From contig JACZXA010000001.1 of the NCBI GenBank assembly GCA_022571865.1, positions 1 to 64,000 of the forward strand: DNA of 64,000 nt, read 5' to 3'. Below the pieces are notes generated by a model. It had not been told where the DNA came from. It searched no databases and was given only the letters and a program-made list of their open reading frames with translations. The translations under genes and the position numbers were made by a program. Every line of letters starts with the position of its first letter. Position 1 is the stretch's first letter. Shown here in pieces: positions 23,265 to 40,197 of this stretch. The DNA comes from Pseudomonadota bacterium (GTDB lineage: Bacteria > Pseudomonadota > Gammaproteobacteria > Pseudomonadales > Azotimanducaceae).

Positions 23265-23435
23265 AAGTAAATCGTTGACCCTAATCTCTACCGGCATGCC
23301 CGAGTTGTCCGGTGCATGGTTCCTGTGAGGAACCTGGCCGCAGATCACCAGACCGGCTGAGTACCATTACGGTAGGACCGTGCCCTCATCTGCCGGATCG
23401 GCTACGCTTAAGCCTTGTCATCCGCGGAGGGGACG

Positions 23436-25334
23436 ATGCGCAAGTTCCTGCTACCAGTTGTCCTGGGGTTAATAGCCTGCAGCCCAGCCAGTGAGCAATC
23501 GACCTCGCCAGATCCATCGAGTGAAGTAAACGCCTCCACCGACGTTTCCGCCAACATCTCCCCCGAAGAGTCTGCCGGTTCAAGCGTAGACACCGACTCT
23601 GGCCGCCACGTGTACTTTGGCGACCTCCACGTTCACACCTACTACTCGTTCGATGCGTTCATCTTTGCGACGAGGGCAACACCCGACGATGCCTACCGTT
23701 ATGCCAAAGGCGAGGCGATCCGCCATCCGGCGGGTTTCGACGTACAACTCAAGCGGCCGCTCGATTTTTATGCCGTTACGGATCACGCGATGTTTCTCGG
23801 CAACCTTGCGGCCTGGGCGGATGGCACTTCTGTCAAGTCCGAGGATCCCGTGGCGGTGCGGGTCGCTGCGGCTAAAACGACATCGGAACGGCACGCTGCG
23901 TTCCTTGGTATGCGGCCTTACCTCAAGGAAGGTGCCGACAACAAACTGTTGGACCTCGACGTGGTTCGCTCCGCCTGGGCAGATATTCAGGCCGCGGCGG
24001 AACGCCACAACGATCCTGGTGAGTTCACGACGTTTGTCGCGTATGAATACACCTCCAGTCCGGAGTCACAGAACCTGCATCGCAATGTCATCTTCCAGGG
24101 AGCCGCAGCGCCATCGACACCGTTCAGCCGCCTGGACTCCGCCAATCCAGAACAACTGTGGGCATGGATGGACAACCTGCGCGACCAAGGCATCGAGTCA
24201 CTTGCCATTCCCCATAATTCGAACGGTTCAAACGGGCAGATGTTCAAGCTCACCGATTGGGATGGAAATCCGCTGGATGCGGCGTACGCAGAGGTCAGAC
24301 TCCGTAACGAACCACTCGTGGAGATCACCCAGGTGAAAGGCACATCGGACACCCACCCGCTGCTTTCTCCTCACGACGAATGGGCCGATTTCGAGATCAT
24401 GCCTTACCGCATCGGAACCTGGATCGACAGCGACCCAAACGGCAGCTACGTGCGCCAGGCGCTTCTGAACGGCATTCGCATGGAAGATCGCGGCGGTTTC
24501 AATCCATACCAATTCGGAATCACGGGTGCGAGTGACAGCCATACGGGGGCCGCCTCCCTGGATGAAGCCAATTTTTTCAGCAAAGTGGGGCTGCTGGATG
24601 CAACCCCGCAATTGCGGGGTTCGATTCCGCTGGATGAACCGGGTGCCGACGGGAATATCTACGCCAACACCTATTACAACACCTGGGGCGCAAGCGGTAT
24701 CACCGGGGTGTGGGCCGATGCCAATACACGAGGCGACATCTACGATTCGTTGCGTCGAAAAGAGACCTTTGCCACCAGTGGAACGCGGATCACGCTGCGT
24801 TTTTTCGCAAGTTTCGAGTTCCGGGAAGATCTGCATGACGAACCCAACATGGCGGAAATTGCTTACGAACTCGGTGTGCCGATGGGAGGCGATCTGCTCC
24901 CCGGTACGGGCTCTCCCAGATTTGTTGTCATGGCGCTTCGAGACCCGGCAAGTGCTCCGCTTGAACGCCTACAAATCATCAAGGGCTGGGTGAACGACCG
25001 AGAGCCTTTTGAACAGGTCTACGACGTCGCCTGCTCGGATGGTTTGCAAGTGAATTCAGATACCCACCGCTGTCCTGACAATGGCGCACGGGTCAATATA
25101 TCGGACTGTTCGATCACCGAAGGCGTCGGCGCTTCGGAGCTGCTGGCCACCTGGGAAGACCCGGAATTCGATGCAGACCAACAAGCCTTCTACTACGTGC
25201 GCGCGCTGGAAAATCCCACCTGTCGCTGGTCTACCTGGGACGCGGTGCGCGCGGGTGTTCCGCCTCGAGATACCCTGGCAAAGACAATTCAGGAACGGGC
25301 CTGGTCATCACCCATCTGGATTCACCCGAATTAG
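23436..25334 (+). CDS. DUF3604 lipoprotein (PHP-like metal hydrolase)
   Basis: A 632-residue lipoprotein. Lipobox GLIACSP is cleaved before Cys15, followed by a Ser/Thr/Glu-rich linker to about residue 55. The DUF3604 domain then begins YFGDLHVHTYYSFDA, a PHP-type His-x-His metal site. VTDHAMF and FVAYEYTSSPE carry further ligand-type residues, and GASDSHTGAAS the C-terminal Asp-x-His. The family is widespread in marine bacteria; its substrate is unknown. The ATG at 23436 follows GGAGGGGAC, an excellent ribosome site. A perfect 20-base palindrome lies within it at 24602-24621. Confidence 0.88.
   Translation: MRKFLLPVVLGLIACSPASEQSTSPDPSSEVNASTDVSANISPEESAGSSVDTDSGRHVYFGDLHVHTYYSFDAFIFATRATPDDAYRYAKGEAIRHPAGFDVQLKRPLDFYAVTDHAMFLGNLAAWADGTSVKSEDPVAVRVAAAKTTSERHAAFLGMRPYLKEGADNKLLDLDVVRSAWADIQAAAERHNDPGEFTTFVAYEYTSSPESQNLHRNVIFQGAAAPSTPFSRLDSANPEQLWAWMDNLRDQGIESLAIPHNSNGSNGQMFKLTDWDGNPLDAAYAEVRLRNEPLVEITQVKGTSDTHPLLSPHDEWADFEIMPYRIGTWIDSDPNGSYVRQALLNGIRMEDRGGFNPYQFGITGASDSHTGAASLDEANFFSKVGLLDATPQLRGSIPLDEPGADGNIYANTYYNTWGASGITGVWADANTRGDIYDSLRRKETFATSGTRITLRFFASFEFREDLHDEPNMAEIAYELGVPMGGDLLPGTGSPRFVVMALRDPASAPLERLQIIKGWVNDREPFEQVYDVACSDGLQVNSDTHRCPDNGARVNISDCSITEGVGASELLATWEDPEFDADQQAFYYVRALENPTCRWSTWDAVRAGVPPRDTLAKTIQERAWSSPIWIHPN
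24602..24621. repeat. Perfect 20-base palindrome inside the DUF3604 gene
   Basis: AACCCCGCAA followed by its exact reverse complement TTGCGGGGTT, encoding part of ATPQLRGS. It keeps the frame. Confidence 0.6.
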
Positions 25335-25345
25335 GCGAAGGTCAT

Positions 25346-27010
25346 ATGCCTGAACCCGTACTGACCGTCTACCCTGCCCGCTCGGTCATCACCATGAATC
25401 CTTCGCTGCCGCGTGCGGAAGCCGTGGCTGTGCGCGGTGATCGAATTGTCGAGGTTGGGACGCTCGCGTCCATGCAACCCTGGTTCGATGCCCATGAGCA
25501 CATCGTGGATGATCGCTTCTCAAGCAACGTGATCGTGCCCGGATTTATCGACCCCCACCTGCACCCCACCATGGCGGCAGTGCTGTTGCCGATGAATTTC
25601 GTTACCGCGACGGAGTGGAAACTCCCCTGGGGCACAGTATCACCATCGATGACACCCGAAGCGTTCCTCAATCGTGTAGCGGAAATCGAGGCCGCTGTGG
25701 AGAATCCGGAAGAGCCGGTTTTCATCTGGGGTTATCATCAACTCTGGCACGGGTCCATGTCGCGGCCATTGCTCAACAAGATCAACGCGACGCGTCCGAT
25801 TATTGTCTGGCATCGATCGTTTCACGAACTCTATCTAAATGATGGTGCACTGAAATTTTTGCACATCACCGAGGCGGAGGTAGGAAACCGCAAGCAGATC
25901 GACTATCCGAACGGTCATTTTTTTGAAGCCGGTCTCGGCTATGCCGTCAATCGACTAAACCCGACTATCCTCGCTCCTGAAAAATATGCTGAAGGTCTCG
26001 AACGGCTGAAACAGGTGGTTCACTTCGGTGGTCACACCACCATAGCGGATATGGCCACAGGGTTATTCGATTTCGATGCCGAGTGGCTCATGTTAAAACA
26101 AGTGATCGAACGGGACGATACGCCGTTCCGGGTGGAACTCGTTCCGGATGCTGCCAGACTCAGGGCATCCAAAGGCAGCAACGAAGCGGCCCTCGCTTTC
26201 GCGAAATCGCTACCCGAACAAAATACCCACAGGCTGCGTTTCTCCGACCACATTAAACTTTTTGCAGACGGCGCTTTCTTCTCCCAGCTTGCCCAACTTC
26301 AAGAGCCGGGTTACATCGACGGCCATCACGGCGAGTGGATCACGCCACCGGAAAAACTCGAAGAGGCCATGCGAATCTACTGGAACGCGGGGTTCAAAAT
26401 TCATCTCCATGTGACCGGTGATCTAGGTGTCGAACTCGGGTTGGATCTGCTCGAAAAACTGCAATGGGAACGGCCCCGTTTCAATCACGGCTTTACCTTC
26501 GAACACTTCGGCTTCTCGACCCCCGAGCAGGTGGAAAGAATCGCGAAGCTCGGAGCGAGCGTGTCGGCCAACGTGTATTACCTCTACGAACTCAGCGATG
26601 CTTATGCGAGACATGGCATAGGCTTCGAGCGTGCAAGCCAGATGGCTCGATTGAGCGCCTGTTTCGCGAACGGTATCACCACGGCCTTGCACTCGGATTT
26701 CACGATGGCGCCCGCTGAACCACTCAACAACGCCTGGGTTGCGGTCAACCGGATAAATTCGACCGAACAACTCATGGGTCCCGAAGAGCGGATAACGGCA
26801 GAGCAGGCGCTGGCTGCCATTACCATCAATGCCGCCCGGGTCATCGGTCGGGCCGACGACATCGGCAGCCTGCGCGCTGGCAAAAAAGCAGACTTCACAG
26901 TTCTTCGGGACGATCCTCTGACAACCGACCCAATGCATCTCAAAGACATCCCAATCGTTGCAACTGTCTTTGAAGGTCGACCGTTCCCAATCGAGCGTAC
27001 CGGCCGATGA
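25346..27010 (+). CDS. Amidohydrolase, YtcJ-like
   Basis: A 554-residue member of the Amidohydro_3 branch. The metal-binding start is VPGFIDPHLHPT, with internal IHLHVTGD and NHGFTFEHFGF and the terminal segment ALHSDFTMAPAEPLNNAW. The C-terminal strand LRAGKKADFTVLRDDPL is typical. No signal peptide. It would hydrolyse an amide or ester bond of an unknown compound. It sits 11 bases after the DUF3604 gene and overlaps the CobW gene, so the three form an operon. The CobW partner suggests metal delivery to these hydrolases (inference). Confidence 0.9.
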   Translation: MPEPVLTVYPARSVITMNPSLPRAEAVAVRGDRIVEVGTLASMQPWFDAHEHIVDDRFSSNVIVPGFIDPHLHPTMAAVLLPMNFVTATEWKLPWGTVSPSMTPEAFLNRVAEIEAAVENPEEPVFIWGYHQLWHGSMSRPLLNKINATRPIIVWHRSFHELYLNDGALKFLHITEAEVGNRKQIDYPNGHFFEAGLGYAVNRLNPTILAPEKYAEGLERLKQVVHFGGHTTIADMATGLFDFDAEWLMLKQVIERDDTPFRVELVPDAARLRASKGSNEAALAFAKSLPEQNTHRLRFSDHIKLFADGAFFSQLAQLQEPGYIDGHHGEWITPPEKLEEAMRIYWNAGFKIHLHVTGDLGVELGLDLLEKLQWERPRFNHGFTFEHFGFSTPEQVERIAKLGASVSANVYYLYELSDAYARHGIGFERASQMARLSACFANGITTALHSDFTMAPAEPLNNAWVAVNRINSTEQLMGPEERITAEQALAAITINAARVIGRADDIGSLRAGKKADFTVLRDDPLTTDPMHLKDIPIVATVFEGRPFPIERTGR

Positions 27011-27894
27011 CGCCGCTTACGGTTCTTGGAGGGTATCTCGGCGCGGGTAAGACGACGATCATCAACGGACTGCTGGCGAGCCTGGCGCAAGCAACGGGCA
27101 ACCCGCGAATTGCCGTGCTGATCAACGACTTCGGCGCGATCAACATAGACGCCAAGCTGATCCGTAAACACCAGGGACGCACGGTGGAATTGACCAGCGG
27201 CTGTGTATGCTGCGACATTCAAGATGATCTGGGGAGCGCGTTGGACGCCTTACGCGGAGCGTCTTTTGAACAGGTGCTCGTAGAAGCGAGCGGCGTTGCC
27301 TACCCGGCCAAGGTGGCCAATTACGCGCTCACCTGGCCCGGATATCGCCCAGCCGGAATTCTGGTTGCCGTGGACGCACTCAACGTCGAGGACCAGAAAA
27401 AGGACAAATTCATCGGTCACCTGATCGACGCGCAGATAACCGAAGCGGATCTGCTGCTCCTGACCAAACTCGACCAGCTTGATTGCAATCACAGGCAGAC
27501 TCTCCGGGATTCATTGCCAACCCGCGCCGTACGTGTCGACCACGGCTGCGTTGACGCAGACATTCTGCTTGCGGCAACTCTCAGCCGGCCCGATAGCCCC
27601 GTTGTGAAAGACCATAGTGACCAATTCCGGACACTCGACTATCAATCTGACCGAATACTCGACCACGATCGCCTGCTCACCTTCCTCGACGAACTACCGG
27701 AACCCGTGGTGAGAGCAAAAGGCTGGATTCACGACAACCAGGGTGCCTGGTGGCTCCAGTCGGTTGGCAAGCGCTGGACGCTGGAACCCGCCACGGCAAT
27801 ACCAGACGGCACCAACCTCGTTTTTATCGCACTCGCCAAACCCGGGACCGGGGCAATGTTGAGCGGGCTGAAACATGCCCTGCAAGGCCTCTGA
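27007..27894 (+). CDS. CobW/COG0523-family metal-chaperone GTPase
   Basis: A 295-residue GTPase. Walker A is GGYLGAGKTTII, the metal-binding CxCC motif is GCVCCDIQDD, and the base-recognition region is LLLTKLDQLD. The shorter C-terminal CobW_C-like part begins near WIHDNQGAWW. COG0523 proteins load zinc, cobalt or other metals into partner enzymes. It overlaps the amidohydrolase stop (ATGA), which makes the two metallo-hydrolases upstream its likely clients. Confidence 0.9.
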   Translation: MTPLTVLGGYLGAGKTTIINGLLASLAQATGNPRIAVLINDFGAINIDAKLIRKHQGRTVELTSGCVCCDIQDDLGSALDALRGASFEQVLVEASGVAYPAKVANYALTWPGYRPAGILVAVDALNVEDQKKDKFIGHLIDAQITEADLLLLTKLDQLDCNHRQTLRDSLPTRAVRVDHGCVDADILLAATLSRPDSPVVKDHSDQFRTLDYQSDRILDHDRLLTFLDELPEPVVRAKGWIHDNQGAWWLQSVGKRWTLEPATAIPDGTNLVFIALAKPGTGAMLSGLKHALQGL

Positions 27895-27928: not shown

Positions 27929-28297
27929 TCAGGCATCCTCGCGGAGCTGTCGATGAGCGAAAACCAGCAACACCACGAAAACGACTTCAAAAATAAATGG
28001 TGTCAGCACACTGGATTCAACGCCATCGACAACGAAGCCGACCAGACGGCCCAGCGCAATCATTCCCATGAGCACGGCCACCGCAAGAAACCACAGCGTC
28101 TGACCCCGCACGATACCCAGCACCAGCAACACGGTACCGGTAACGAACATTCCTCCGATATCACCACGCAGCGTGCTCAAACCCAGAATGCCTTCCGGCG
28201 TCACCCCCATGTTGGCGGCCGCGCTCGATGGATCGATTACCGCACTCACACCCCCGAACAGTAATAGTGCCGCGATCAGTCCAACGACTATTTTCAT
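27929..28297 (-). CDS. Small membrane protein, DUF4345-like
   Basis: A 122-residue protein with four membrane segments (VVGLIAALLLFGGVSAVI, MFVTGTVLLVLGIV, LWFLAVAVLMGMIALGRL, PFIFEVVFVVLLVFA). The ALGRLVGFVVDG signature fits the DUF4345 family. Function unknown. Convergent with the CobW gene, about 34 bases apart. Confidence 0.75.
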   Translation of the reverse strand: MKIVVGLIAALLLFGGVSAVIDPSSAAANMGVTPEGILGLSTLRGDIGGMFVTGTVLLVLGIVRGQTLWFLAVAVLMGMIALGRLVGFVVDGVESSVLTPFIFEVVFVVLLVFAHRQLREDA

Positions 28298-28666: not shown

Positions 28667-29179
28667 TCAAGACAGTGCAGCCACCACATCGTCAAAAACC
28701 GCGTCAGCCAACTGACGCATCTCCGCGTCGGTCCTATCCTGGATGGGATGCGCGACGAAACAGCGTTTTGCGTCCATTCCGAGCGCTTCCGCCTGGGCCT
28801 GTGCGGCTTCTTCAAACTCTTGCGAAGCGATCGAAACCGCCGGTGTTCCCTGGATCTCAAACCATACCGTGTCATGCAAACTGCACGTGGTACAGGATCC
28901 TCAGTCGGCCAGACCTTCTATGATGAAGTCGTTGTTTTCCTGAATCTCGCGGCGCAGCGCATCCGGCGCCGGTTTGGTAAACGTCGGTTTCGAATACCGA
29001 TTTACCGTAATGCCTTCTAAACGTTCGCTCAACAGCGTTTCCAGCCGGTCGAGCAGCACGTTGCCGCGCGGCTTGGAAATATCCAGCAACGCCACCCGTC
29101 CGGTAATCACACCGCTACGGGGGGTAATCTGTCTCGCGACGGGTTCGGCCTCATTCGTGGGATCCAATATAGTGGTCAT
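28667..29179 (-). CDS. UGSC-family selenoprotein (in-frame UGA)
   Basis: A single 170-residue frame once the UGA at 28901-28903 is read as selenocysteine (codon 93). The protein reads EGLAD-U-GSCTTCSLHDTVWFE, the defining U-G-S-C motif of the UGSC family, with a further Cys three residues on. The N-terminal half is GRVALLDISKPRGNVLLDRLE. The C-terminal half, with the QAQAEALGM and VAHPIQDRT segments, is normal for the family. Both halves share one frame, and a SECIS-like hairpin follows the UGA. It starts two bases after the stop of the thioredoxin-fold partner gene. The family's biochemical role is not established; a selenol redox function is likely. Confidence 0.9.
28865..28892 (-). promoter_or_regulatory. 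SECIS-like hairpin for the UGSC selenocysteine codon
   Basis: On the minus strand, UACC (28892-28889) pairs with GGUA (28868-28865). GUGCA (28886-28882) pairs with UGCAU (28878-28874) around the tri-loop GUU (28881-28879). The loop begins 19 bases after the UGA and starts with G. This fits the bacterial SECIS consensus of 16-37 bases spacing with a G in the first two loop positions. Confidence 0.72.
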
Positions 29180-29181
29180 TT

Positions 29182-30762
29182 CTACACCTCCTCGATTTTC
29201 CTCGAGACCGATATGCTACCGATCTCCCCGGTGGCCCAGCCGTGAAACGCGCCGGAGAATTTACCAGCGTCGGCACCGGCCACCACGATGTGAATGTCTG
29301 CATCGCTCTTGAATTTTGGCAGCTCTTTCTGCAGAGCTTCTTCTGTCATTGATGCCGCAGCGGATTTCGGAAACCCTACCGCTGAAACTTCATTCTCAAC
29401 CAGTTCACTGATGGGCCGTTTGGTTACTTCCTGAATGCGCGCCCGTATATCGGCTTTCGTATACCCGTCCCGGATCAGCGTATCGACGTGCTCAGGACAT
29501 ACGACCAATAACACCTCGGTTGCATAATGGGCTTTCGGGTGGAAGGCGCTTTCGAGGCCAAGCCCCAGACTTCCCGCCAATTGAGACGCGGTACGTGAAG
29601 ACTGATCGACAATCAGCGTTGGTCCACTTGTCATCGCGAACACTGTCACTACGCAATCATCCGCCCCAAATCCACGTTCAACATGCAACGGATCCCAGGG
29701 ATTACGTTCTTCCCACTCGGGAAAACACATGGTGAACTTCATGGGATTGCCGAGCGTCGATCGCTCGGTGCCACCGGGTTTCGCACCGCCAATATTGCGA
29801 ATGGCGAGCCTGAGCGCGCGGCCGATGGTGGCGTTGGCGCGGGATCCCTGCCCCAGCACACCGAGCTTCATGTTCATGCCAATACGTTCGCGTATGGGCC
29901 CATTGACCACCATCACCGGACTCGCACCCATGGTTGTGGCCATCACACCGTGAATGTTGTATTCATCCGTGCAAACCGCCTCCACCGCCGCGAGGATGAC
30001 TCCTAGATATTCCGGTTTAGCGCCTGCCATGACCGCATTGATGGCGATCTTCTCAACGGTGGCGTCACCCATGTTCGGCGGCATCACGGCAACCACCTCC
30101 TGAGGATCGCGCTTCGTGCCGGTAAGCATGCGCAGCACCCTCACTGGCGTTGGCGGCACAAGCGGCAAGCCGTCGCTGAAGCCCTGATCGAACATGAACT
30201 CGAACTCATCGTCAGCCGGCGCGATCTCTATCTTGCGTGCCCGCAACGGGCTGTTCTCCGCTTCGGCGCGCAATCGATCTGCAATGAGCGGATCCACCGA
30301 AAGCGAGCCACATCCGACACGCCATTCCGGTAACGCCTCCCAGTCGAGTTCCGGCGCCTCAGTATCGAGCGAGTCACTCAAGTCCCTGGCAAGTTGTTGC
30401 CACTCACGACGCACAAATCCGGTGAGTTGCTTGGCGAGATTACCTTGGTCATCGCTCAAGAAAAGCGACGGAACTGTGTCGATGTCATAGGCAAAAGAAA
30501 CTTTGAGCGAGGTATCGTCGAGAATGGAAAACGATGGGTTGTGGCGCTCGCGCAAACGCGTGTTGCCTTCGAGCGTCTGGCCGGCGACATAAAAATCTAC
30601 CCGATCGCCGAAAGCGCGATAAAAGCTCTCCAGCACCGGCATGACCTCGTTGCAGGTCGGGCAGTCCTCCTTCAGGAGGCAAATCAACGCCGCTTTGTCA
30701 CCGGGAAAACTGATGCTTTCGCCATTTTCGTCGCTAAGCAGAAACGCCGGTAATTGGCTCAA
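29182..30762 (-). CDS. Thioredoxin-fold fusion protein, partner of the UGSC selenoprotein
   Basis: A 526-residue protein. Residues 1 to about 140 form a thioredoxin-like domain with a CxxC site (LLKEDCPTCNEVMPVLESF) and the cis-Pro-like TVPSLFLSDDQG. The rest, beginning near EFEFMFDQGFSDGLPLVPPTP, is a conserved domain I know only from proteins encoded with UGSC genes. It holds PPNMGDATVEKIAINAV, GASPVMVVNGPIRERIGMN and GQGSRANATIGRALRLAIRNI. No signal peptide. It lies two bases upstream of the UGSC gene in the same operon. The CxxC domain could reduce the selenol/thiol of the partner (inference). Confidence 0.8.
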   Translation of the reverse strand: MSQLPAFLLSDENGESISFPGDKAALICLLKEDCPTCNEVMPVLESFYRAFGDRVDFYVAGQTLEGNTRLRERHNPSFSILDDTSLKVSFAYDIDTVPSLFLSDDQGNLAKQLTGFVRREWQQLARDLSDSLDTEAPELDWEALPEWRVGCGSLSVDPLIADRLRAEAENSPLRARKIEIAPADDEFEFMFDQGFSDGLPLVPPTPVRVLRMLTGTKRDPQEVVAVMPPNMGDATVEKIAINAVMAGAKPEYLGVILAAVEAVCTDEYNIHGVMATTMGASPVMVVNGPIRERIGMNMKLGVLGQGSRANATIGRALRLAIRNIGGAKPGGTERSTLGNPMKFTMCFPEWEERNPWDPLHVERGFGADDCVVTVFAMTSGPTLIVDQSSRTASQLAGSLGLGLESAFHPKAHYATEVLLVVCPEHVDTLIRDGYTKADIRARIQEVTKRPISELVENEVSAVGFPKSAAASMTEEALQKELPKFKSDADIHIVVAGADAGKFSGAFHGWATGEIGSISVSRKIEEV

Positions 30763-30926
30763 GCCTCGTTTCCTCCCCTTTTAACATCAACACCGACGTT
30801 AGCATGAATGGCACCTTCCTCAAACGACCCTTCATCAGGTTGCAGAGGATACGTCGACGAGGCAGTATCCACGAGGTGTCGCATTGGCGATGTCAGCGCG
30901 AGGCTCAAACTCGACGGGAGAAGCTC

Positions 30927-32021
30927 ATGTTAGTCACCTCACTCGAAATCGGGCGGGCGGAATTCGAATCCGGCACCGGTTGGGAACTCAAACCCGAAGG
31001 CGCCTGTAAAGGTGAAGTATGCATACCGTTGACAGAAACCTCGGGTGACACCGTTGATGTTGCCAGTCTTGCTGAGCAGATGGGTCTACCCGTGGTGGAA
31101 GATTCGACTTACGGTTTGTGGGCCATCGGTCCCGAATCCATTGGTGCACGGTCACTCACCACCGCCGAGGCACCCGAGTTGTGTCTGCCGGACATGAACG
31201 GCGTTGAGTTCCGCCTCTCGAGCCTGCGTGGACAGAAGGTACTCGTTTACGCCTGGGCTCCCTACTGAGGATGTGCACGTGACCTGCCCGTGTGGCAGGC
31301 CTTACGCGAAGAACTGCTTCCCGAGGGGCTCGAGATCGTTACCGTTGGCCTCGACACGCTGGGGGTGGAGGGTTGTGGAGGGTTCATCCTGGCGGCCAAC
31401 CCCCAGCACCCGTCGCTCATCGACCAGCATCATGTGCTCGCAGAAAAGTTCGGCGTCATCAACATACCCAGCAGCATCTGGATCGACGAGCAAGGCTTGA
31501 TTGTCCGCCCGGCAGAGACCGCGCCCGCACCGCCCCGGCCATCATCGGGACCGACCGAGATGCCTGCGGGGACCCCGCCTCGATTTGTCGACATCATGGC
31601 GGAAGCGGCAAAAATCCAGAGCAATCCGGAGGCTTATCACGACGCCCTGCGCGACTGGGTTGCACTGGGCTCAGAGAGTGAGTTTGCCTTGTCACCCGAT
31701 GAAGTGATCGCACGGTCCCGGCCGCGGGATGCCGACACCGCTCGGGGGCACGCCCACTTTGAACTCGCCTCCCATCTCGAGGCGGACGGCCACCATGAAG
31801 CGGCCATAGAACATTTTCGTACCGCGCACCGTCTGGTTCCGGATAGTTGGACCTTTCGCCGTCAAGCGTGGTCGCTCGAAACGTCCATAGAGGGACCACT
31901 CGCTAGATTCTGGCAAGGCCCTTCCACCGACGATCCCGAGCGTTGGCCCTACGAAGGTGACTGGCTGAGCGATATTCGTGCGTGTGGTCCTGAAAACTAC
32001 AACGAATCCTGGGAGCCGTAA
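30927..32021 (+). CDS. Selenocysteine-containing thioredoxin-like (TlpA/ResA-type) protein
   Basis: A 364-residue frame if the UGA at 31266-31268 is selenocysteine (codon 114). The active site then reads VLVYAWAPY-U-GCARDLPVWQALREEL, where cysteine homologues have W-C-G-C. The next segments are standard for the fold: IVTVGLDTLG, PSLIDQHHVLAEKFGVINIPSSIWIDEQG (cis-Pro) and LIVRPAET. The C-terminal part is helical, with a tetratricopeptide-like stretch (AHFELASHLEADGHHEAAIEHF). Both parts are in the same frame. The ATG at 30927 follows GGGAG. No signal peptide is visible. It is divergent from the UGSC operon, so the two may share regulation. Confidence 0.9.
31283..31299 (+). promoter_or_regulatory. 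SECIS-like hairpin for the UGC redox-site selenocysteine codon
   Basis: A perfect six-base stem, CCUGCC (31283-31288) with GGCAGG (31294-31299), encloses the loop CGUGU. The loop begins 20 bases after the UGA and has G at its second position, as bacterial SECIS elements do. It lies entirely within the coding sequence. Confidence 0.82.
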
Positions 32022-32081: not shown

Positions 32082-32915
32082 ATGAGCTATCGGACTATCG
32101 ACATAACCACGCTAACGCCGCACCTCGGTGCGGAAGTGCACGGGGTGGATCTGGCGACGGAGCTATCCAACGAGCAGTTCAGCGAGGTGTATCAGGCATG
32201 GCTCGATTGGAAGGTACTGGTGTTCCGCGATCAGCACCTCGACCGCGACCAGCACAAGGCATTTGCCCGACGTTTTGGTGCGCTGCATGTACATCCGATG
32301 CAACACAGTTATGGTGGCGACCCGGAGATTCTCACGGTCAAAACAACCAAGGATTCGAAATACACCGCCGGTAACGGCTGGCATACCGACGTGACCTGTG
32401 ATGAGATCCCACCGTTAGGCTCGATGTTGTATATGAAAGAGACCCCGGAGTGCGGCGGGGGTGACACGTTGTTCGCCGATATGTATCTCGCCTACGACCT
32501 GCTCTCGGATACCATGAAGGAGATGCTCGAAGGGCTCATCGCCGTGCACGATGGCGCCATCCCCTACACAGGCGGCTACGGTGTTGCACCGCCCCCCGGT
32601 GAGAAGTACCCCAGGAACGAACATCCCGTGGTGACCACTCACCCCGAAACAGGCAAAAAGGTTCTTTTCGTCAACGCCGGGTTTACGTCGCATATCAAGG
32701 GGCTCGCGCCCTGGGAAAGCCGGATGCTGCTTCAGGGCCTGACACAGCACATCGCCACCACGCCAAGCCTGGTCGGCCGGGTGACGTGGCAACCCAACAC
32801 CCTCACCTTCTGGGACAACCGCTGCACCCAGCACCATTCCGTTTGGGATTACCAACCCCATTCGCGTTATGGGGAACGAGTGTCCATCGTCGGAACCGTA
32901 CGCCCGGCCGCGTAA
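32082..32915 (+). CDS. TauD/TfdA-type 2-oxoglutarate dioxygenase
   Basis: A 277-residue Fe(II)/2-oxoglutarate dioxygenase. Iron ligands are H101-x-D103 (GWHTDVTCD) and the distal H251 (RCTQHHSVWDY). The 2-oxoglutarate-binding Arg lies in the C-terminal RYGERVSIVG. The N-terminus (PHLGAEVHGVDLATEL) is typical. The substrate is not evident; relatives act on taurine, phenoxyacetates or alkyl sulfates. It begins 60 bases after the selenocysteine redox gene on the same strand, so co-transcription is possible. Confidence 0.9.
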   Translation: MSYRTIDITTLTPHLGAEVHGVDLATELSNEQFSEVYQAWLDWKVLVFRDQHLDRDQHKAFARRFGALHVHPMQHSYGGDPEILTVKTTKDSKYTAGNGWHTDVTCDEIPPLGSMLYMKETPECGGGDTLFADMYLAYDLLSDTMKEMLEGLIAVHDGAIPYTGGYGVAPPPGEKYPRNEHPVVTTHPETGKKVLFVNAGFTSHIKGLAPWESRMLLQGLTQHIATTPSLVGRVTWQPNTLTFWDNRCTQHHSVWDYQPHSRYGERVSIVGTVRPAA

Positions 32916-38844: not shown

Positions 38845-40197
38845 TTAGAGCGTGTTGACATACGCAACCAGGTCGTTGATGTCTTCGTCGTCGTGCAATA
38901 TGTCGGCCATCAACTGCATCTGAATACCATACATATCTTTCTCATGTGATCCTCGGATCCGCGCCTTGAAGTTCTTCAACTGGGTCACCAGGTACCAGTC
39001 GCTCATCCCCGCCTGCCTCGGCGCGTTCAACGCCTGAATGCCCATACCGTCGTGACCATGACAATTTGCACAGACCCGAAAAATTCTCTCACCATGTTCG
39101 ACATCACCTTCAACGGTCGCTTCGGGCGCATTGTCCGGTAGCGTCTGCACGTAGGCGATGACATTGTCGATGGCTGCCTCGTTCGTAAGAGTCAACGCCA
39201 TCGGCGCCATCTGTCGGCCGTAAATGTCGTCGGGGTGTGAGCCGCGCACACCACTGCGGTAATACTGGATCTGGCGTTTCATGTACCAGGCGCCCTGCCC
39301 GGCAATTTTTGGCGAGTTCAAGGCCGCGTTGCCTTCACCCTGAACGCCATGACACGCGGAGCAGATGGCATAAAGCGCACGACCCGCCTCCGGGTCGCCA
39401 GGCAACTTTGCGGCGTGTTCGGCATAGGTCGGATGACCCGCCAACCAGGCATCGAATTTTTCCTGGGTTTCCACAACGACCTTACCACGCATCGTGAAAT
39501 GGGCGATGCCACACAATTCCATGCAGAGAATGTCGAACGTCCCTGACCTGGTCGGCGTCAACCAGACGTAGGAAACCAGCCCCGGCACCATGTCCATCTT
39601 CACGCGAAACTGCGGTACCGCAAAATTATGGATTACGTCTTTCGCCCGCAACAGCACCTTGACAGGAACATCTAACGGCAGGTGCACCTCAGAATTGAAA
39701 ATGAGTACATCATCCTGACCGTTCGGATCTTCCGGATTCATGCCGAAGGGATTTTCATTCGTCATGAGCCTGGCGTCGGTGGTGCCCATGACACCATCTT
39801 CCCCTGGAAACCGAAAACTCCAATGCCACTGTTGACCGACGACTTCGAACTCGGTCGCGTCTTCCGGCACCTCGACGAACTGTGCCCAGACAAAAAGCCC
39901 GGGGGCGAGCATTGCCACTACGCCTACCGTGGTAATGCCGATGAGCCAATTCTCAAGCTTGGCATTTTCCGGCTCATAGTGCGCCCGAACGCCATCTTTG
40001 TGGCGATACCTGATCACGGCATAGGCCATGAACAAGTTGACCGCGACAAACACGATGCCAGTAACCCAAAATGTAAGGTTGATGGTGAAGTCGATGGCGC
40101 CCCAGTTTGAAGCCAACGGGGTAAGCCACCACGGGCTTAAAAAGTGGAACGCCACCGAACCGATGACCAACAAAATTAAAGCAACTGCGAACGCCAT
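38845..40197 (-). CDS. Cytochrome c oxidase subunit II fused to two cytochrome c domains
   Basis: A 450-residue protein. Two N-terminal membrane helices lead to a cupredoxin domain with the CuA site (IHNFAVPQFRVKMD, then ILCMELCGIAHFTM with C-x-E-x-C and His/Met ligands). Then come two cytochrome c domains with haem motifs CSACH and CANCH, about 95 residues apart and with distal Met segments (MAPMALT, MQLMADI). This makes it a caa3-type oxidase with an extra haem compared with the usual single-haem tail. It is the first gene of the oxidase operon. Confidence 0.93.
   Translation of the reverse strand: MAFAVALILLVIGSVAFHFLSPWWLTPLASNWGAIDFTINLTFWVTGIVFVAVNLFMAYAVIRYRHKDGVRAHYEPENAKLENWLIGITTVGVVAMLAPGLFVWAQFVEVPEDATEFEVVGQQWHWSFRFPGEDGVMGTTDARLMTNENPFGMNPEDPNGQDDVLIFNSEVHLPLDVPVKVLLRAKDVIHNFAVPQFRVKMDMVPGLVSYVWLTPTRSGTFDILCMELCGIAHFTMRGKVVVETQEKFDAWLAGHPTYAEHAAKLPGDPEAGRALYAICSACHGVQGEGNAALNSPKIAGQGAWYMKRQIQYYRSGVRGSHPDDIYGRQMAPMALTLTNEAAIDNVIAYVQTLPDNAPEATVEGDVEHGERIFRVCANCHGHDGMGIQALNAPRQAGMSDWYLVTQLKNFKARIRGSHEKDMYGIQMQLMADILHDDEDINDLVAYVNTL

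Follow-up and report, generated by a model that had tools for sequence, protein, structure and literature searches.

The DNA analysed here, referred to below as the window, is a stretch of 64,000 nucleotides from a gammaproteobacterial genome. It holds three genes arranged around a divergent intergenic region of 164 bases (30763..30926). On the minus strand are the gene of a 526-residue protein, hereafter the partner, which starts with TTG (30762..29182), and the gene of a 170-residue UGSC selenoprotein with selenocysteine (Sec) at residue 93 (28667..29179); the stop codon of the former and the ATG of the latter, at 29179, are two bases apart. The plus strand carries a divergent WAxxUGC redoxin selenoprotein (30927..32021), whose ATG at 30927 is the start given by the family model. 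This layout of a thioredoxin-fused partner, a UGSC gene and a divergent Sec-Gly-Cys redoxin had been described in an earlier note on this DNA, and the sequence and its open reading frames bear out all of its positions. Promoter and terminator scans of the 164-base region returned nothing, and no sigma-70-type site was seen in it.

Several other genes surround the three. A TauD dioxygenase gene follows the redoxin (32082-32915), as the note had also said, and was considered as a further member of the system; its neighbourhood is not conserved, TauD being found near few loci only, mostly gammaproteobacterial, and it was rejected. On the other side, 3′ of UGSC, lies a gene for a small DUF4345/DoxX-like membrane protein (27929-28297, minus strand), and similar-looking small membrane open reading frames are located downstream of UGSC in L031, the closest relative of the window, and in L046. 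Genes for an amidohydrolase and a CobW-type GTPase (25346-27894, plus strand) are convergent with the UGSC operon and adjoin it in L031 as well. Further away are a large DUF3604 protein (23415-25334, plus strand; 748.6 bits), a conserved protein of unknown function, and a cytochrome c oxidase subunit II-like protein apparently fused with two cytochrome c domains with the motifs CSACHG and CANCHG (38845-40197, minus strand).

Selenocysteine in UGSC and the redoxin

Both selenoproteins belong to families that have already been named. The UGSC protein scores 154.8 bits against NF041046 (cut-off 125) and 152.9 bits against PF24696 (cut-off 25), and the redoxin reaches 507.7 bits against NF041054, the long WAxxUGC ResA-like selenoproteins (cut-off 300), of which it is a clear member with the motif WAPYUGC. 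Since both proteins lie above the curated cut-offs, the in-frame TGA of UGSC (28903-28901, minus strand; context LAD-U-GSCTTC) and that of the redoxin (31266-31268, plus strand; WAPY-U-GC) are, as judged from sequence, Sec codons and not chance occurrences. The UGSC protein has the U/C-G-S-C motif of its family, its genome encodes a Sec machinery, with selC (tRNA-Sec) and selB on contig C185 and a gene next to them that is selA-like by sequence, and a bacterial SECIS-like hairpin is predicted by RNA folding immediately 3′ of the Sec codon (28852..28900, minus strand; minimum free energy -17.4 kcal/mol, z -2.2). By a bacterial-SECIS-like rule, such a hairpin is present in 75 of 79 homologous UGSC genes, compared with 39% of their synonymous-codon shuffles. 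The redoxin's own hairpin after the Sec codon is not significant (z -0.3).

The Sec/Cys column is invariant in all 80 aligned UGSC homologues. An in-frame TGA was found in 79 of 80 UGSC genes examined, and L023 (carrier G143) has Cys. The Sec codon of UGSC in Candidatus Blastococcus massiliensis is TAG (L093:9263-9265), which is consistent with the published Sec-UAG recoding of UGSC genes in Geodermatophilaceae (PMC5330540). UGSC is mentioned among the most abundant selenoprotein families of aquatic metagenomes (PMC2398784) and is given as uncharacterised in PMC13188914. In the literature found, the family has neither a function nor an assigned partner and was taken to be thioredoxin-like; the present analysis gives UGSC an obligate partner, an alpha/beta fold and a kinship with GrdB.

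The partner protein and its pairing with UGSC

The partner is composed of two parts. Its residues 1 to about 130 (30373..30762, minus strand), with a CPTC motif at 34-37, are AhpC-TSA/ResA-like according to family models, and in the AF2 model of the protein (pLDDT 94) this domain matches ResA 2h1a by Foldseek with an E value of 1.9e-8 and a TM score of about 0.8. Among the aligned thioredoxin-fused members, C34 is conserved in 56/56 and C37 in 53/56, and the linker residue Cys151 (30310..30312, minus strand) is invariant in all 57 aligned thioredoxin-fused N-termini. The second part, residues about 187 to 526 (29185..30204, minus strand), is strongly conserved, with D197, T277, N287, R315, N323, E349, E351 and H425 invariant or nearly so. 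Searched singly or as a family, it gave no match above cut-off in Pfam, NCBIfam or PDB sequences, and loose thresholds in Pfam and NCBIfam added chance-level matches only; in Foldseek searches of PDB and viral models, the matches listed for the partner (the top 50 in one search) are thioredoxin-like. The partner resembles ResA/TlpA-type thioredoxins in its N-terminal domain and CxxC motif and differs from them in the fusion of this domain to an unnamed domain of 340 residues. The fusion of a CxxC thioredoxin domain to a large uncharacterised one, proposed earlier, is confirmed.

The earlier note had made its reading depend on a neighbourhood conserved in other genomes, and a genome collection was surveyed for it in a single scan, using a profile built from six sequences of the large partner domain. 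At least 577 relatives of the partner were confirmed, and the analysis was made on the best 80 of them, which come from Gamma- and Alphaproteobacteria, Chloroflexi/Dehalococcoidia, Actinobacteria, Acidobacteria, Myxococcota, Gemmatimonadota, Desulfatitalea, Rokubacteria, Binatia and others. A UGSC gene adjoins the partner in 77 of these 80 loci, across many phyla; the remaining three either end near the partner gene or belong to a genome with UGSC elsewhere, and UGSC was indeed detected in the genomes of loci from which it had seemed to be missing. The gap between the two genes, over all loci fetched, has a median of 47 bp and is at most 250 bp in 111/113. Agreement is equally close in unbiased samples. 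In a phylum sample, UGSC and the partner occur in the same 3 of 249 genomes. In a class sample (289 genomes of another class), UGSC is present in all 27 genomes with the partner, and the only two further UGSC matches are marginal, TGA-less and about 65 residues long (Fisher 5.6e-36, for genomes that are not independent). The genome of the window itself has a second, divergent UGSC/partner pair on contig C134.

Natural single-chain fusions of UGSC and partner also exist. They were found as weakly scoring UGSC copies and are mostly followed by another partner gene. A 'UGSC/Unknown_1' fusion is recorded by Zhang and Gladyshev (2008; PMC2398784), and its 'Unknown_1' is probably the partner domain described here. 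Taken together, genomic co-occurrence, adjacency and fusion strongly support the view that the thioredoxin-fused large protein and UGSC are one conserved, obligate two-protein system. Apart from sel and thioredoxin reductase (TrxR)-like genes, no conserved third-party neighbour is fixed; CaiB-like and acyl-CoA-dehydrogenase-like clusters lie near 12-15 loci. Among open-licence papers, none was found on the partner, its pairing with UGSC, the reductant modules or the link to GrdB, and these four aspects are apparently new.

Fold of UGSC and kinship with GrdB

The AF2 model of UGSC (pLDDT 92) is a parallel alpha/beta structure of five strands, in which Sec93 stands just ahead of the helix that follows strand 85-91. 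The matches found by Foldseek include flavodoxin- and lumazine-synthase-like proteins, at TM scores of about 0.4-0.5. An earlier guess that UGSC is a thioredoxin-fold selenoprotein was discarded, given the alpha/beta model and an active site that does not come after the first strand of a thioredoxin fold. UGSC profiles gave nothing against PDB sequences.

The U-x-x-C-x-x-C motif of UGSC recalls GrdB of glycine reductase and PrdB of D-proline reductase, and the canonical GrdB of L117 has the motif UGSCNRC. Profile comparison of UGSC with proteobacterial GrdB-like proteins gave a P value of 4.5e-4 and outscored 60 column shuffles as well as 78 decoy families. When canonical GrdBs of other genomes were included with the GrdB-like proteins, hhalign returned a probability of 81, a P value of 1.2e-5 and a score of 42.3, and none of 100 column shuffles scored above 20.3; Sec is aligned on Sec and the UxxC motif is matched. 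Identity is 18-23%, and PF07355, the GrdB/PrdB family, is absent among the matches listed for 80 UGSC members in a plain Pfam scan. These profile alignments identify UGSC as remotely homologous to the selenol (Sec) domain of GrdB/PrdB. It differs from GrdB in its length of about 170 residues, without the N-terminal part of GrdB, and in a partner that is not GrdE-like: the partner was considered as a GrdE/pyruvoyl subunit and rejected for want of detectable similarity to GrdE, and PF09338 (the GrdE/PrdA pyruvoyl proprotein) was not found in the genome of the window. Therefore, if the analogy with GrdB holds, substrate activation must differ. The same genome encodes two GrdB/PrdB-like selenoproteins, on C213 (L111:1060-2019, VPVUPVCHQ) and C289 (L115:1357-2316, VPTUPVCHQ), without a detectable GrdE-type partner.

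Proposed electron supply and chemistry, and paralogues

The source of electrons appears to vary among loci. The thioredoxin domain is fused to the partner in 90 of 116 loci and lacking in 26. A TrxR-like gene is found within 2.5 kb of none of the 90 fused loci and of seven of the 26 thioredoxin-less ones (Fisher 1.4e-5, although the loci are not independent; both Fisher values overstate independence because the loci are related by descent). Four of these TrxR-like flavoproteins were tested: they have a Pyr_redox_2 domain and a CAxCDG motif, and their best NCBIfam model is TIGR01292 (thioredoxin-disulfide reductase), at 209-246 bits and below its cut-off of 343. In L138, L141, L142 and L144, the genes of such CAxCDG flavoproteins lie downstream of UGSC-partner fusions, and these flavoproteins may be specific to the system. 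The earlier note had suggested an electron flow from a thioredoxin-like donor to a selenol enzyme, which fits both the fusions and this apparent exchange of thioredoxin for a TrxR-like protein; the redoxin is only loosely involved.

The thioredoxin fusion and the TrxR-like neighbours would also suit a general role in antioxidant defence or thiol repair, in which UGSC would reduce peroxides or disulfides and be recycled by the fused thioredoxin domain, with the partner domain as an adaptor. Many bacterial selenoproteins are redoxins, and the WAxxUGC redoxin co-occurs by genome with UGSC. We consider this role unlikely: UGSC does not have a thioredoxin fold, the many invariant polar residues of the partner outside its thioredoxin part are those expected of an enzyme, and a generic antioxidant would not usually have as many as eight divergent paralogues with differing gene surroundings.

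The redoxin itself had been placed in a three-gene redox system, of which the UGSC/partner pair proved conserved and the redoxin, for the most part, did not. It adjoins the pair in the window and L031, and in L162/G514 and G430, which represent one distant alphaproteobacterial lineage where it is codirectional with the pair; it is thus linked in two lineages only and is near one of the 80 best partner loci. Among the genomes of the class sample, the long Sec redoxin occurs in 15 of the 27 with UGSC and in 3 of the 262 others, a co-occurrence that may stem from a common reliance on Sec machinery. That UGSC cannot do without the redoxin as its electron carrier, as these links by neighbourhood and by genome could suggest, is very improbable, since the redoxin is missing from nearly all the best partner loci and, in its long Sec form, from 12 of the 27 UGSC genomes. 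It is better seen as an occasional, loosely associated companion of the pair and not as a core part of it.

Some genomes contain up to eight UGSC and seven partner copies. The neighbours of the paralogues inspected include N,N-dimethylformamidase-like, amidase-like, amidohydrolase, phosphonate-binding, TctC, transport-receptor and asparaginase-like genes, among others, and these contexts suggest one chemistry acting on several substrates. In about 20 alphaproteobacterial loci, the pair adjoins selA-, selB- and selC-like genes, in some cases with an apparent NDH-SelD fusion gene next in line (the sel proteins were named by reading their sequences and selC by ARAGORN). From this position it could be argued that the pair delivers or reduces selenium for Sec synthesis. 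Such a role is improbable, given that sel genes do not adjoin the window copy or the pair in most loci and that selenium supply does not need several paralogues per genome. In addition, the travelling of sel genes with a sole selenoprotein gene is a known pattern of formate dehydrogenase (PMC5029168).

GrdB and PrdB carry out a thiol-fed selenol chemistry, and their paralogues act on different substrates. By analogy with them, the pair may be a two-component, thioredoxin-fed selenol enzyme that cleaves its substrates reductively, a proposal that we judge to have an even chance of being right. UGSC, as a selenol domain that stands on its own and is kin to its Sec-containing counterpart in GrdB/PrdB, would form a physical complex with the partner, whose large domain most likely binds and activates the substrate. 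Sec93 would attack the substrate and break a carbon-heteroatom (or similar) bond; Cys96 of the UxxC motif would then resolve the selenium-substrate adduct, giving a Se-S bridge that the fused thioredoxin domain (C34/C37) would reduce, possibly via linker Cys151. Electrons would reach thioredoxin from NADPH through TrxR, and some thioredoxin-less versions would have a TrxR-like gene of their own. The paralogous pairs would have diversified onto different substrates.

The carriers of UGSC include lineages that we take to be aerobic, as they are generally regarded. More tentatively, and with the balance slightly against it, the pair could represent a new enzyme class that cleaves bonds by means of a selenol and that corresponds, outside anaerobes, to the glycine and proline reductases. 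The place of the pyruvoyl subunit would be taken in it by a new, unrelated domain, and the class would have radiated onto several substrates per genome. For UGSC, which has been without a function for almost two decades, the pair makes function directly testable, the handles being its obligate partner, its dedicated source of electrons, its kinship with a characterised selenol-reductase family and the natural single-chain fusions. The partner delimits a large and so far unassigned family of proteins, and the pair may explain why many alphaproteobacteria retain the Sec machinery.
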